Of a DNA stretch of 42,727 nucleotides, positions 12,194-18,898 are shown in pieces (the first letter of the stretch is position 1; each line of letters starts with the position of its first letter). The DNA lies in NCBI GenBank assembly GCA_947040945.1, contig CAMRCO010000007.1, positions 1 to 42,727 of the forward strand, in the 5' to 3' direction. A program made the position numbers and the translations under genes. Below the pieces are notes generated by a model. The model saw only the letters and a program-made list of their open reading frames with translations, did no database searches and had not been told where the DNA came from. The DNA is from an uncultured Spirochaetia bacterium (GTDB lineage Bacteria; Spirochaetota; Brachyspiria; Brachyspirales; Brachyspiraceae).

Positions 12194-14152
12194 ATGAAAA
12201 AAAGTAAAATTGTTTGTTTTTCAATATCATTAATTATATTAGCATCTTTTATCACTCTTTCATTATTAGGTGGAGTAGAGCGTAAAGGATATTTAGCAGA
12301 GTTTACTCTTTCACAAAAACTAGGTAATAAATATACGTATAACCTACGCATGAAATATTATGATAAAGTTTTTAGGCATAGCGATATATATGGAGTTTAT
12401 CCTAAAAATACTAATTTACCTGAATATATAAAAAGTATTAAATGGGGAGATAATGGGAGTCCTTTTGGAACGCTTATTAGTGAAAAACAAATAAATAAAA
12501 ATGATAAAATAGATATAGGGTATACACTTAAGATAAAACCAGACATAGCTATATATATAATAATAGCTGTTCTTATACTTATTGGTCTTTGTTTTAAGGA
12601 TAAATTATTACTTTGGTCAGAAAATAAAAAATATATACCAAAAATAGCATTTTTAATTATTTTATCTACATTCTTAGCCTTATTAGTAACATTTGTTTTT
12701 TATAATTTAAGTAATGCTAATTGGACTTTTGGTGACGACCATATATATCTTAGAACAACAACTCAAAAACTGACCACTGGATTTGGGCATGGTATGGGCG
12801 GTGATAGATTTGGTCCATTGTTAGATATGCATAATAATTTGCTCATACCTTTTGGAAATAACCCATTTGTATATCTACTATTAAATAACATAATACTTGT
12901 TGCTATGATTTTATGTTTATTTTTTATAATAAAAAGATATTCAAATCAATATATTTCTATTTTCTTTATTTTTGTTTTATTCACTTTACCAGATATAGTA
13001 TATGTCTTCATGAGTAATATTTTTTCTGAACCTTCCTTACTCTTTTATATTTCTCTATTTGCTATTTTTTATCAAAAAGGACTTGATACATCTAAAAACA
13101 GATACTATATTTTAGCATCTATTGCAGCATTAATTTCAACATATTACAAAGAACCTATGTTTGGTCTTTATCTAGTTTTTGCATTAACACAGCTTATATT
13201 TAACTATAAAAACTTAGAAAAAAATCAAAAATATTTTCTAAGCTTTTTAATATTAAATGCTTGTTTATTTGCTTCTCTATACATCTGGCATATAAAAGAC
13301 TTTTCTGGTACTGGATATGCTTCAGGTAGAAGTGATGGACTTAATCAATTTGGTATTTTTGTATTATATGTTAAAGAAAGCACAATGTTTCTTTTAGCTT
13401 TACTCGTTTCTTTAGTACGTTCTTTTTATATTCTTATAAAAAAAGATAAAAAACTTATTATTTTTGATGCTTACCTTTTTGCTGGACTTGCTTACACATT
13501 CGCATACATTATACTTAAGATGCAAGCTTTTTATTATATATTACCTTCTTCTGTATGTTATTTAATTGCTTTTTCAGGGTATATAAATTATTTAATGAAA
13601 CACATAAAAAATAAAAATGCTACCGTAAATAAAAAGACAATTATTTTTAGTAAATTAGCTGTTATTATTTTAATTGGAGTGCCTCTTTTTATAATACCAA
13701 CATCATATATAAAAAATATAACCATAGCAAAAAATATTGTGCGGGGACGTTACGCTACTATACATGAGACTAAATTAATATCCGCCTTAAAAGACGCTGA
13801 TTTTAATATTTATTCGTACTATGGAAATGACTGGAGATATTACGTTTTAAACGCATTTGCTTCATTTGATGCTCATAATGGCGAATATAAAGCTGATTAT
13901 CTTGCAATAGAGAAAATATTTGAAGACAGTGATATTAGTAATATTCACAATTATGATAAAAATATAGTATTATTTGAAAGCAATTATTCAAATTTAATCA
14001 CAAAAGATTATAACCCAATTGAACTTAAATTAGAAGATTATAGTGAACCAGGAACTATAAGCCTTTTTTCTTTAAAAGGATTTGTATCCAAAAAATCTTT
14101 GGATGAGTACACTGAAATTCTAAATGATATTAATGATAAATATTTAAGATAA
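12194..14152 (+). CDS. multi-pass membrane protein, probable GT-C-fold glycosyltransferase
   Basis: A 652-residue polytopic protein with roughly a dozen hydrophobic segments. After the first membrane helix (about residues 5-24) there is an extracytoplasmic stretch to about residue 115, then further helices, with NWTFGDDHIYLRTTT (about 176-190) at the start of an outer loop. An acidic DD pair here is the usual place of the catalytic acid in GT-C enzymes that use lipid-linked sugars. The C-terminal 130 residues are soluble and probably periplasmic. No close family comes to mind; the alternative is a polymerase or ligase of surface glycan. It is convergent with the tandem GT2 gene (3-base gap) and opens the glycan cluster 12.2-18.9 kb. 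Confidence 0.6.
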   Translation: MKKSKIVCFSISLIILASFITLSLLGGVERKGYLAEFTLSQKLGNKYTYNLRMKYYDKVFRHSDIYGVYPKNTNLPEYIKSIKWGDNGSPFGTLISEKQINKNDKIDIGYTLKIKPDIAIYIIIAVLILIGLCFKDKLLLWSENKKYIPKIAFLIILSTFLALLVTFVFYNLSNANWTFGDDHIYLRTTTQKLTTGFGHGMGGDRFGPLLDMHNNLLIPFGNNPFVYLLLNNIILVAMILCLFFIIKRYSNQYISIFFIFVLFTLPDIVYVFMSNIFSEPSLLFYISLFAIFYQKGLDTSKNRYYILASIAALISTYYKEPMFGLYLVFALTQLIFNYKNLEKNQKYFLSFLILNACLFASLYIWHIKDFSGTGYASGRSDGLNQFGIFVLYVKESTMFLLALLVSLVRSFYILIKKDKKLIIFDAYLFAGLAYTFAYIILKMQAFYYILPSSVCYLIAFSGYINYLMKHIKNKNATVNKKTIIFSKLAVIILIGVPLFIIPTSYIKNITIAKNIVRGRYATIHETKLISALKDADFNIYSYYGNDWRYYVLNAFASFDAHNGEYKADYLAIEKIFEDSDISNIHNYDKNIVLFESNYSNLITKDYNPIELKLEDYSEPGTISLFSLKGFVSKKSLDEYTEILNDINDKYLR

Positions 14153-14155
14153 ATA

Positions 14156-16291
14156 TTATTTTTTTACTGAAATTTTAATACCTAAAATATAAAACACATT
14201 AAAGTACCTAGTTTTTTTAATTGAGAATATTCTTTCTTTTAGTGGAATCTTTTGTTTTTTATTACTAGTATTATAACTAAGTAGTTTTTTATAATGTATA
14301 CAAAGTAATTCATAATATAGAGATGGAGTTGTATTATATTTAATATTCATACGTTTTAATTTCTCTTCAAAATTATTTATCAATTCACTTTCGGATACAG
14401 TTGTTATTAAATCTTTTATGTCATACTTACTGTATATTTTGTTATTCTTCATTGCTATACTATACACTTCTTCTAAATAACTTTCTTTAGAGTTTTCATC
14501 GAAGATGTCCCCATTACTAAAAAGCAGTGGCGAGTCATCAATAAAGTATTTGAAATTATTAGCAATTAGATCTAACTTAAACTTATAATCAGATGCAAGT
14601 TTATATGCCAAGTCATAATAACAAGCTATAGAATTATAACAACTTGATTTTATGAAGTATACTTCTTTTGTAGCAATATTATAATTAAAAATAGTGGACT
14701 CTGTTATTTTGCTTGGAATATGCTTTTCTTTTATAATGTAATCATCATCTATTTTTATGATACCTCTGGCTATATAATCAATTTTGTTGTCAACCAATAC
14801 TTCAGAAACACATTCTTCTATAGAGTTTGTAAAATAAAAATCATCACTATTAAGAATAGTAATATAGTCCCCTGAAGCTAGGGGAAGACCTTTGTTTATT
14901 GCGTCATATACCCCTTCATGAGGTTCGCTAATATAATAATCAATATACTCTTCATATTTTTTTATAATGCTTAATGTAGAGTCAGTGCTTCCACCATCAA
15001 TAATGATATATTCAATATTGTCGTATGTTTGGTTAAGAACTGACAAAATAGATCTTTCCAAAAACTTCTCTCCATTGTAGACAGTCATTATAATAGTTAC
15101 AAGTGGTTTATTTTCTGACCCATGTTTATATTTATTTTGGCATCTAAGCCCGCCTTCTGACTTTCTATTATTTGTTAGATCAGGGTATATTATATATTTA
15201 TTTACTATATTGTTAGGAAAAATATTCAGTTTATTTTCAGATATGTTTTTAATAGTTGAATATTCATTATTTTCTTTAAGCTTAAATATATCTATACATT
15301 TTTTAGGATTCTCTTCTAAAACCCGTCTATATAATATTTTTTTTTGATTATCTGTAAAATTATATTTTAATATTACAGAATATACAAAATCAAAAGTATA
15401 CTCACTAAGCCAATTAGCTACAAATTTATATAAACTTTCAAGTTCTTTTATGTTCATATCTTTAAGTCTTTTTGACATAACTTTTACATGTTCTTTATTT
15501 GAAGCATCTAAATTAGAATTACTAGCTCCTCCTAAAGTAAAAGCAACTGTTGAATATCTTATTAATTCATATTTTGGAGACAAATCTATTATCTTAAATA
15601 CTAAGTCTAAATCGCCTGCTATCTTAAACGATGTGTCATAATATCCAATTTTGTTATATATTTTTTTTTCTATAAACATTGTTTGATGACAAGCTGGAAG
15701 TGTCACTAAAAAAGCTACATCATCAAAATTACTTGCTTTTTGTATTCTAATTATATTTTCATGTTCATCTATAATATCAGCATTGGCTGCTATAATATCA
15801 GCATTTGAGGACAAAACCAAATCTACACTGCTTTTTACAGCAAAGTCATAATAAAAGTCATCACTATTAAGAATGGCAATGTAATCCCCTGAGGCTAGGG
15901 TAAGCCCTTTGTTCATCGCATCAAATATACCCTTGTCAGACTCACTAACATAATAATCAATATAGTCTTCATATTTTTCTATAATGCTTAGTGTAGAGTC
16001 AGTACTTCCTCCATCAATAATGATATATTCAATATTGTCGTATGTTTGATTAAGAACAGACAAAATAGCCCTTTCTAAAAATTCTTCCTCATTATAGACC
16101 ACAGTAATAATAGTTACAAGTGGTTTATTTTTTAGACTATGTTTATATTTGTTTTTAGTTCTAAATCCACCTTCAGTTTTTCTATTATCTGTTAAGTCAG
16201 GATATGTTATGTATTTATTTACTATATTCTTAGGAAAAATACTAAGTTTATTTTCAGATATATTTTTAGATGTCGAATAGCATAGATTCAT
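14156..16291 (-). CDS. tandem two-domain family 2 glycosyltransferase (GT2-GT2)
   Basis: A 711-residue cytoplasmic protein made of two GT2 (GT-A fold) catalytic domains. Each has a nucleotide-sugar site beginning PLVTII (about residues 57 and 396), the IIIDGGSTDSTLSII block, and an NSDD DxD-type motif (about 142 and 481). The first 145 residues of each half are about 80% identical by hand alignment, while the acceptor-side halves differ (CHQTMF and GDLDLVFK in domain 1; a different sequence in domain 2). This suggests two sugar transfers with a shared donor or a shared linkage but different acceptors. The C-terminus carries YFNVFYILGIKISVKK, echoed at the N-terminus of the divergent GT4 gene. 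It has its own consensus promoter. Confidence 0.9.
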   Translation of the reverse strand: MNLCYSTSKNISENKLSIFPKNIVNKYITYPDLTDNRKTEGGFRTKNKYKHSLKNKPLVTIITVVYNEEEFLERAILSVLNQTYDNIEYIIIDGGSTDSTLSIIEKYEDYIDYYVSESDKGIFDAMNKGLTLASGDYIAILNSDDFYYDFAVKSSVDLVLSSNADIIAANADIIDEHENIIRIQKASNFDDVAFLVTLPACHQTMFIEKKIYNKIGYYDTSFKIAGDLDLVFKIIDLSPKYELIRYSTVAFTLGGASNSNLDASNKEHVKVMSKRLKDMNIKELESLYKFVANWLSEYTFDFVYSVILKYNFTDNQKKILYRRVLEENPKKCIDIFKLKENNEYSTIKNISENKLNIFPNNIVNKYIIYPDLTNNRKSEGGLRCQNKYKHGSENKPLVTIIMTVYNGEKFLERSILSVLNQTYDNIEYIIIDGGSTDSTLSIIKKYEEYIDYYISEPHEGVYDAINKGLPLASGDYITILNSDDFYFTNSIEECVSEVLVDNKIDYIARGIIKIDDDYIIKEKHIPSKITESTIFNYNIATKEVYFIKSSCYNSIACYYDLAYKLASDYKFKLDLIANNFKYFIDDSPLLFSNGDIFDENSKESYLEEVYSIAMKNNKIYSKYDIKDLITTVSESELINNFEEKLKRMNIKYNTTPSLYYELLCIHYKKLLSYNTSNKKQKIPLKERIFSIKKTRYFNVFYILGIKISVKK
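14835..15259 (-). repeat. intragenic duplication, copy in the C-terminal GT2 domain
   Basis: Corresponds to residues 345 to about 486, offset by 1017 bp (339 codons) from the copy at 15852-16276. Long stretches are almost identical at DNA level, for example the segments around 14860-14900 and 14985-15035 against their partners. Confidence 0.85.
15852..16276 (-). repeat. intragenic duplication, copy in the N-terminal GT2 domain
   Basis: Corresponds to residues 6 to about 147 and is the partner of 14835-15259 in the same orientation. Similarity stops sharply after the NSDDFY motif. Confidence 0.85.
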
Positions 16292-16322
16292 TTTATTGTC
16301 CTAGTATCATTTTAAACACTAC

Positions 16323-16355
16323 TTGAAATTATATCATAAAAGTTTATACTGTCAA
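16323..16355. promoter_or_regulatory. two face-to-face promoters occupying the same DNA
   Basis: Plus strand: TTGAAA (16323-16328), 16 bases, TATACT (16345-16350), driving the GT4 gene. Minus strand: TTGACA (16355-16350), 16 bases, TATAAT (16333-16328), driving the GT2-GT2 gene. The -35 of each overlaps the -10 of the other by one base, so polymerase cannot occupy both at once. Confidence 0.75.
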
Positions 16356-16376
16356 ATATATAGGAGTATGTAGTTT

Positions 16377-17834
16377 ATGAAAAATAATATTTTTTGTTTG
16401 TCTAGAGAAAATAACTTTTTAGTAATTGCAATACTTGGAATAAAAATACGTGTATATAACAAATATTATGCTTTAGAAAGTAGGCTTGATGATTTATCTA
16501 AGTTTACAGCAAAAGTTATCTATGAAGAGAACTTACTTGAGCGTGTAAAAAAATATGAATTAAAAAAACCTAACTCCACTAAACTTAAAAATATAGTATC
16601 TATAAATACTGTAGCTAAAAAAGGTGGAGCTGCTCGAATAGCGTATACTGTTGCTAATACTGTAGGGAAGAGAGGATTTAATAGTGTAATGGCTACAAGT
16701 GGCATCAGTGAAAACCTTAAAGATGAGGAATATGTTAAGTTTTTATCTATTTCATCTAATGAGGAACATAAATTTTCAGAGTATTTAAATAATCAAACAG
16801 GTTACCTAGATTTTTTCTATTATAAAAGTCTAGCCTTAAAAAATAGGGAAGAGTTTAAGAATGCTAGTTTACTACATCTTCATAATTTACATGGTAGCTA
16901 TTTTTCATGTTTTGCACTTCCAGAATTAACAGCACTTAAACCAACTATTTGGACTCTTCATGACACTCAAGCTTTTACAGGACACTGTGCGGGGCTTATA
17001 GATTGTAATAAATGGGAAAATGAAGAGTGTCTAAATTGTCCTAATATATCTTTATATCAAGCATTGCCTTTTGATACGGCTAACTTTATTTATAAAAATA
17101 AAAAATATATATATGAAAATATGGCTAGTGACACTGTTTTAGTATCTCCTTCTAATTGGCTTATTGATAATGTTAAAAAGAGTATACTGCGTAATTATGA
17201 TATACGCTTAATAAATAACGGTATAGATGATAATATTTATAAACCTTATAATAAAGTAGATGTTAGGAATGAGCTTGATTTGCCACAAAACAAAAAAATA
17301 TTGATGTTTGCTTGTGATGGAGGCGACAAAAGTCCTTGGAAAGGTGGAGAGTATATTAAAGAAATATATGACACGTTTAGTAGTAACAAAGATTTGTTTT
17401 TTATGGTTATTGGTGCAGGTAGAAAAGAAGAATTGATAAACAAAAATTATCTAAAAATACCTTATATTACTGATGAGAGTCTACTCGCTAAATATTATAA
17501 TGCATCCGACTTGTTTATTTATCCTTCTAAAGCTGATAGTTTTGGATTAGTTTTAGCAGAAGCATTATCATCTGGATTACCTGTGATTACATTTAATACT
17601 GGGGGAATACCTGAAATAGTTGAGCACATGAAAACGGGGTATATTGCTGAGCATTGCAATATAGATGACTTTATAAAGGGCATAAATACATTTTTATCAG
17701 ATAGCAATTTAATGGAAAAAGCTTCTATTTTAGGAGTAGAAATAGTAAAAGAAAAATTTACTAATAAATTAATGGTTGATAAATATTTGAATCTTTACAA
17801 TGAAGTGTACGAAAAAAGACTAGCCTTAAAATAA
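16377..17834 (+). CDS. family 4 glycosyltransferase (WcaC-like)
   Basis: A 485-residue GT-B fold enzyme. The N-terminal half holds NTVAKKGGAARIAYTVAN (about 78-95), a GGAAR acceptor-side motif, then WTLHDTQAFTGHCAG and a cysteine cluster (CAGLIDC, ECLNCP) seen in WcaC-like colanic-acid type transferases and probably metal-binding. The C-terminal half holds the donor site, with the E-x7-E motif in SKADSFGLVLAEALSSGLPV (about 382-401) and NTGGIPEIV. It probably adds a hexose to a surface polysaccharide. AGGAG lies 10 bases before the ATG. Residues 14-26 (FLVIAILGIKIRV) match the C-terminal tail of the divergent GT2-GT2 protein. Confidence 0.88.
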   Translation: MKNNIFCLSRENNFLVIAILGIKIRVYNKYYALESRLDDLSKFTAKVIYEENLLERVKKYELKKPNSTKLKNIVSINTVAKKGGAARIAYTVANTVGKRGFNSVMATSGISENLKDEEYVKFLSISSNEEHKFSEYLNNQTGYLDFFYYKSLALKNREEFKNASLLHLHNLHGSYFSCFALPELTALKPTIWTLHDTQAFTGHCAGLIDCNKWENEECLNCPNISLYQALPFDTANFIYKNKKYIYENMASDTVLVSPSNWLIDNVKKSILRNYDIRLINNGIDDNIYKPYNKVDVRNELDLPQNKKILMFACDGGDKSPWKGGEYIKEIYDTFSSNKDLFFMVIGAGRKEELINKNYLKIPYITDESLLAKYYNASDLFIYPSKADSFGLVLAEALSSGLPVITFNTGGIPEIVEHMKTGYIAEHCNIDDFIKGINTFLSDSNLMEKASILGVEIVKEKFTNKLMVDKYLNLYNEVYEKRLALK

Positions 17835-17902: not shown

Positions 17903-18898
17903 ATGAAAAAAATAAATAAAATACTAATACATGCGCCAAATTGGCTTGGTGATATAATGATGTCCTTACCCGCTATGACTCTTATAAGAGAAAAATATAG
18001 TGATGCACATATATCAATTTTTCTTAAAAGTAGTATGTGTTCTGTATTTGAAGAAAGCGACATAATTAATGAAACTATACCATTAAGTAAAATTGACACT
18101 ATAAAAAGTAAAAAATTTGATATGGCTATTTTATTTCCAAACTCATTTATAAGTGCTCTTAGAGTATTTGGTAAAGGTATTAAGTATAGAGTAGGGTATT
18201 CAGGTGATTACAGAAATATGATGCTCACTCATATTGCCGACAGAAAACCTGTTAGGTGGATTAATACAACAGCATATTATGTAAATATGCTTAAAGTTAT
18301 CGGAATTGAAAGCGAAGTTCCAAAAGTAAAACTTAATATTGGTAGTAAAGCTTTAGAGAGAGCATCTTTGTATTTAGAAAATGAAGATGCATTATCTAAA
18401 CCTATATTTGCTTATGGAGTAGGGGCTACAAATAGTTTTGGGAAAGTGTGGCATGAAAAACATTTTGCGGAAATTATGAATACTTTATCAAAAAAATATG
18501 ATGCCAAAACTCTAATTATTTCTACACCAGAGGAAAGTGAAATGGTGAAAAATGTTGTTTCTTTGCTTGACCATAAACCTCTAATTCCTCATCGTGATTT
18601 AGCAACAATATCTGCTATGCTTAGCCTTTGTAAAGGCTTTATAGGAAATGACTCAGGCGCTATGCATCTTTCTAGTGCGATAGGAATCCCAACACTAGGA
18701 CTATACTTCGCAACTCCTCCATATCAAAATATGCCAATAGGTGAAAGAAGTGACATAATAGTTAAGCAACTTCCTTGTGCTTTTTGTGGTGGACAAAAAT
18801 GCAAATTAGGTACATTTGAGTGTAGAGAAGTTATAAAGCCAAATGAAGTTTTAGCAAAATTTGAAAATATGATAGAAAAAGTTAGCTCTAAAAATTAA
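17903..18898 (+). CDS. waaF: ADP-heptose:LPS heptosyltransferase II (GT9)
   Basis: A 331-residue GT-B enzyme of family 9 that adds the second heptose to the lipopolysaccharide inner core. Diagnostic segments are ILIHAPNWLGDIMMSLPAM (residues 7-25), GVGATNSFGKVWHEKHFAEI (about 172-191) and GFIGNDSGAMHLSSAIGIP (about 250-268), with the donor-binding GNDSG. A late cysteine group (CAFCGGQKC) is common in WaaF. It supports an LPS or lipooligosaccharide with a heptose-containing core. It lies 68 bases after the GT4 gene but has a promoter 8 bases before its ATG and no ribosome site, so it may be translated from a leaderless mRNA. Its last four bases overlap the end of the opposite-strand gene. Confidence 0.9.
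   Translation: MKKINKILIHAPNWLGDIMMSLPAMTLIREKYSDAHISIFLKSSMCSVFEESDIINETIPLSKIDTIKSKKFDMAILFPNSFISALRVFGKGIKYRVGYSGDYRNMMLTHIADRKPVRWINTTAYYVNMLKVIGIESEVPKVKLNIGSKALERASLYLENEDALSKPIFAYGVGATNSFGKVWHEKHFAEIMNTLSKKYDAKTLIISTPEESEMVKNVVSLLDHKPLIPHRDLATISAMLSLCKGFIGNDSGAMHLSSAIGIPTLGLYFATPPYQNMPIGERSDIIVKQLPCAFCGGQKCKLGTFECREVIKPNEVLAKFENMIEKVSSKN

Follow-up and report, generated by a model that had tools for sequence, protein, structure and literature searches.

Overlapping divergent promoter matches between two glycosyltransferase genes of an uncultured Brachyspiraceae bacterium

Described overlapping promoters and their relation to this locus

The bioA/bioBFCD promoters of Escherichia coli are a classical example of overlapping divergent promoters, and the bioA/bioB region carries a BirA operator. 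Strict bidirectional promoters are defined more narrowly, by a shared −10 element and by starts 7-25 bp apart, 18 bp being the commonest separation (Warman, Grainger and colleagues; PMC12825309, PMC10268837). In five E. coli bidirectional promoters (bioA/bioB among them; starts 10-23 bp apart) basal activity did not suffice for competition, strong competition followed once a −35 had been improved, and engineered interference cut cell-to-cell noise, the Fano factor falling from 0.16 to 0.07 at acrA/acrR (Warman et al. 2026, PMC12825309).

Here we describe a 33-bp block at 16323-16355 of a 42,727-nucleotide window (the whole stretch of DNA analysed), which is one contig (C7; CAMRCO010000007.1) of a 2.17-Mb draft genome of an uncultured Spirochaetia bacterium. 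The block lies between a GT2-GT2 glycosyltransferase gene on the minus strand and a GT4-type glycosyltransferase gene on the plus strand. Like bioA/bioBFCD, it places two promoters in a short region between related divergent genes, where steric competition would be expected; unlike bioA/bioB, no operator or regulator was recognised at this locus. With the shared −10 class it has in common pseudo-symmetrical DNA, on which polymerase could sit in either orientation and give transcripts that diverge, in many cases from genes linked in function. In contrast to that class, whole promoters are superimposed and the −10 elements are separate (16345-16350 and 16328-16333), each touching the opposing −35 by one base, and the predicted divergent starts are about 36-38 bp apart, beyond the 7-25 bp range (PMC10268837). 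The block thus stands outside the strict shared −10 class; what it presents, between two divergent genes, is a pair of opposed promoters whose core elements overlap, as in overlapping divergent sigma70-type promoters. A first-pass annotation had called the promoters "face-to-face", which is the wrong term, since the transcripts diverge. We regard the locus as a new example of a known compact arrangement for starting two genes: probably, these are ordinary overlapping divergent promoters of the housekeeping sigma factor, giving unregulated co-expression biased to the GT2-GT2 gene, with no switch.

Elements of the block and chance expectation

The plus promoter consists of the −35 TTGAAA (16323..16328, plus strand; 5/6) and the −10 TATACT (16345..16350; 5/6), separated by a 16-bp spacer, with a predicted start at 16357 or 16358. 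On the minus strand, the −35 TTGACA (16350..16355; 6/6) and the −10 TATAAT (16328..16333; 6/6), again with a 16-bp spacer, are accompanied by an extended −10, with TG one base 5' of the −10 (TGATATAAT), and predict a start at 16321 or 16320. Base 16328 is common to the plus −35 and the minus −10, and base 16350 to the plus −10 and the minus −35. The first-pass annotation had placed both promoters in the same 33 bp, which is exactly right, and had each −35 overlapping the other's −10, which is also true, by precisely one base at either end. Its description of near-consensus boxes on both strands is correct as well, but the two are unequal, at 12/12 for the minus and 10/12 for the plus promoter. 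With a 16-bp spacer, two full-consensus promoters can be fitted into one another as a perfect palindrome, the double consensus TTGACATTATA-N11-TATAATGTCAA, from which the block departs at two positions; it accordingly forms an inverted repeat, TTGAAATTATA / TTGACAGTATA, with 9/11 positions matched around an 11-bp centre. The combination of TATACT 16 bp from a perfect TTGACA was found again in the source genome.

How far such matches are to be trusted depends on the background, which was sampled in 443 kb from the source genome and 400 kb from a single Brachyspira genome and compared with dinucleotide shuffles in 1-kb blocks (17.7 Mb in all). In the source genome, sigma70-type sites matching 11/12 occur at 0.47 per kb in intergenic against 0.055 in coding sequence, and 12/12 sites at 0.065 against 0.005. 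Upstream of genes, sites of at least 10/12 number 28 in the sense and 10 in the antisense direction over 100 regions, and Brachyspira behaves alike. This sense-side intergenic enrichment indicates that the TTGACA/TATAAT housekeeping consensus applies in the source organism and therefore that both promoters are credible. A published start-site map for Brachyspira was not found in the literature.

Pairs in which both sites reach at least 10/12 at an offset of 32-34 bp were represented in the 443 kb by this one alone, where shuffles predict 0.75 per 443 kb for these offsets and 0.15 at the exact offset; a pair with a summed score of at least 22 never arose in the 17.7 Mb of shuffled sequence. Across the whole genome, 16323-16355 is the one place with at most 3 mismatches to the double consensus, and the reversed-pattern control has no match at that threshold. 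As a sequence match, the minus promoter is secure. The plus promoter, though alone modestly above chance, is likely real.

The principal alternative is a real minus promoter without a plus counterpart, the match on the plus strand being a by-product of AT-richness and of the near-symmetry of promoter elements, with GT4 expression weak or dependent on a poor start. With the minus hexamers held, a plus site of at least 10/12 appears somewhere in about 10% of shuffled gaps (P about 0.10), and strong promoters of the family lack an average excess of interlocked antisense hexamers, both of which speak for this account. Nevertheless, when the exact dovetail geometry is demanded with the minus promoter held, the plus site recurs in about 0.2% of shuffles (P about 0.002); it is, moreover, suitably placed for the GT4 leader, lying a few bases 5' of the Shine-Dalgarno sequence, and no further plus-strand site of at least 9/12 exists in the 85-bp gap to serve GT4 instead. 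A minus promoter standing alone is thus, in our judgement, unlikely. Read-through from upstream was also considered as a supply for GT4 and rejected, the left neighbour gene being antisense.

Gene context, crowding and conservation

The GT2-GT2 gene (14156..16291, minus strand; 711 aa) encodes two tandem GT2 domains, PF00535 matching in two stretches, and the GT4-type gene (16377..17834, plus strand; 485 aa) matches PF00534, PF13692 and PF13439; a GT9 gene (17903-18898; PF01075) follows downstream of GT4. Their start codons, at 16291 and 16377, are 85 bp apart. The GT4 Shine-Dalgarno sequence AGGAG (16362..16366, plus strand) goes with a predicted leader of about 19-20 nt, and AGGA of the GT2-GT2 gene (16299..16302, minus strand) with one of about 30 nt, so that both genes would have short leaders with good Shine-Dalgarno sequences.

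Crowding best explains why the promoters overlap, since of the 47 divergent gaps in the sample this one is the shortest, the 5th percentile being 110 bp. Once two leaders of about 20 and 30 nt are accommodated, the gap would have room for one promoter-sized block, and both promoters would therefore come to share a single 33-bp stretch in opposite orientations.

Several features of the surrounding genes may be recorded here. Within the GT2-GT2 gene, the segments 14833-15262 and 15850-16279 (minus strand; 430 nt each) are 83% identical without gaps, and the protein halves are 56% identical over 267 residues; the gene looks like the product of a recent internal tandem duplication. A short motif, ILGIKI, occurs at the C-terminus of GT2-GT2 (14156-14230), near the N-terminus of GT4 (16377-16480) and at the C-terminus of a Brachyspira fused GT2-GT4 protein (L010:2600-2718); in two of these three proteins, basic residues come after it. 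Furthermore, 12194-17834, which comprises a protein without a Pfam match and the GT2-GT2 and GT4 genes, is a low-GC stretch (24-28%).

The sole other sequenced genome found for the genus is that of an uncultured spirochaete (G001); the two share 78% identity in the glutamyl-tRNA synthetase gene, against about 75% between the source genome and Brachyspira species. In this congener GT9 still adjoins the response regulator and glutamyl-tRNA synthetase genes, GT4 has no match, and the gene upstream of GT9 has no relative in the window. Because GT4 is absent and the genes upstream of GT9 are unrelated there, the comparison suggests that 12194-17834 is a glycosyltransferase block gained or replaced beside the conserved GT9, response regulator and glutamyl-tRNA synthetase genes. 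None of the genome contigs searched contained a close relative of GT4. The nearest homologous GT2 and GT4 genes, in a distant relative (L005), are co-directional and overlapping, and in Brachyspira (L010) the two are fused into one 746-aa protein with both domains confirmed; such pairs would fit a functional partnership of the two enzymes. The first-pass annotation had named conservation of the block as a check, but no orthologous locus with the arrangement was found, the closest GT2/GT4 pairs being co-directional or fused. As far as sampled, the source genome alone has the two genes divergent with interlocked promoters.

Similar blocks, polymerase competition and the absence of a switch

In 29 genomes of the family, the dovetail pattern matches 81 times and its reversed control 18 times, these being sums in which orthologous sites are counted repeatedly. 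Several matches fall at divergent gene pairs, some conserved between species. One might hence propose that TTGACATTATA-N11-TATAATGTCAA defines a separate class of bidirectional promoter, kept by selection in the Brachyspiraceae, in which exclusion fixes the expression ratio of the partner genes, and that members of this class have separate −10s, each with one base in common with the opposing −35, and starts about 36 bp apart. We hold such a class to be unlikely. The surplus follows in part from the enrichment of promoters as such, and in a conditional test interlocked antisense partners were, on average, no more frequent than expected at the strong promoters of the family sample; interlocking is therefore not a general design. 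As a systematic architecture of the family the pattern was rejected on this ground, suggestive as 81 against 18 may be.

Palindromes resembling that at 16323-16355, with at most 3 mismatches to the double consensus and lying between divergent genes, are found for instance at lexA (L034), VWA/ferredoxin (L039), L050 and biotin ligase (L086) loci. These involve other genes, their gaps are wider and the second promoter is weaker, and some of them are conserved between species, whereas the 16323-16355 locus is not. The single dovetailed block of the congener (L086:1501-1533) occupies a 117-bp divergent gap between cytidylyltransferase-like and biotin-ligase-like genes. The block upstream of Brachyspira lexA, TTGTTATTATACTATA(T/C)AAAAATATGATGTCAA (L211-L221 at about 301-333; L034:1501-1533), is invariant at 32/33 positions in 11 genomes. 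In it a 12/12 promoter for lexA is joined to a weaker one in the opposite direction, and conservation does not extend to the flank facing away from lexA. This block may contain a LexA operator, and its conservation could equally reflect that operator.

An operator is also the core of a further alternative for the present locus, namely a regulated switch in which the inverted repeat TTGAAATTATA-N11-TATACTGTCAA doubles as a binding site and a repressor or feedback loop flips expression. The 9/11 repeat across the block and the like-shaped conserved Brachyspira blocks, such as that upstream of lexA, a gene self-repressed in other bacteria, would agree with it. However, the two promoters fully account for the symmetry, the genome has no second copy of the repeat, the locus lacks conservation, and published interference reduces noise (PMC12825309). 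A scan of the neighbouring genes found no regulator or recombinase domain, the nearby response regulator matching in its receiver domain alone. We therefore consider an operator-based switch highly improbable. The first-pass annotation had likewise offered a "noisy switch", which is unsupported, because interference lowers noise in E. coli and the scanned neighbours include no regulator gene; a switch of this kind would need feedback as well. Neither a feedback regulator, nor an operator, nor an invertible segment with its recombinase, as a bistable or phase-variable switch would have, was recognised.

The neighbouring genes encode surface-glycan-type enzymes, which in other bacteria are often subject to phase variation. 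Even so, an invertible promoter segment driving one gene at a time was rejected as almost certainly wrong, since the inverted repeats around the block are only short AT-rich chance pairs, none suggesting inversion, the scanned neighbours lack a recombinase, and promoters are already present in both orientations.

Returning to two ordinary overlapping promoters, we envisage a simple competition. RNA polymerase has a footprint of more than 33 bp, and occupancy in the two directions would therefore be mutually exclusive; the earlier claim that the enzyme can face only one way at a time is sterically sound, following from the complete overlap and the established footprints. Polymerase would thus bind the block in one orientation at a time, and the minus promoter, with its full consensus and extended −10, would be expected to be the stronger and partly to hold down the plus promoter. 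By analogy, a 12/12 minus promoter with an extended −10 appears to resemble the strong-competition case (PMC12825309), from which one would expect a bias to GT2-GT2, some repression of GT4 and noise that is, if anything, reduced. The outcome would be that both transferases are co-expressed without regulation, with a bias to the GT2-GT2 gene.

If both promoters fire, the locus would offer a compact natural test of RNA polymerase competition with one side at full consensus, a regime that the tested E. coli bidirectional promoters reached only by engineering. For the organism itself, the effect of the arrangement is likely modest.
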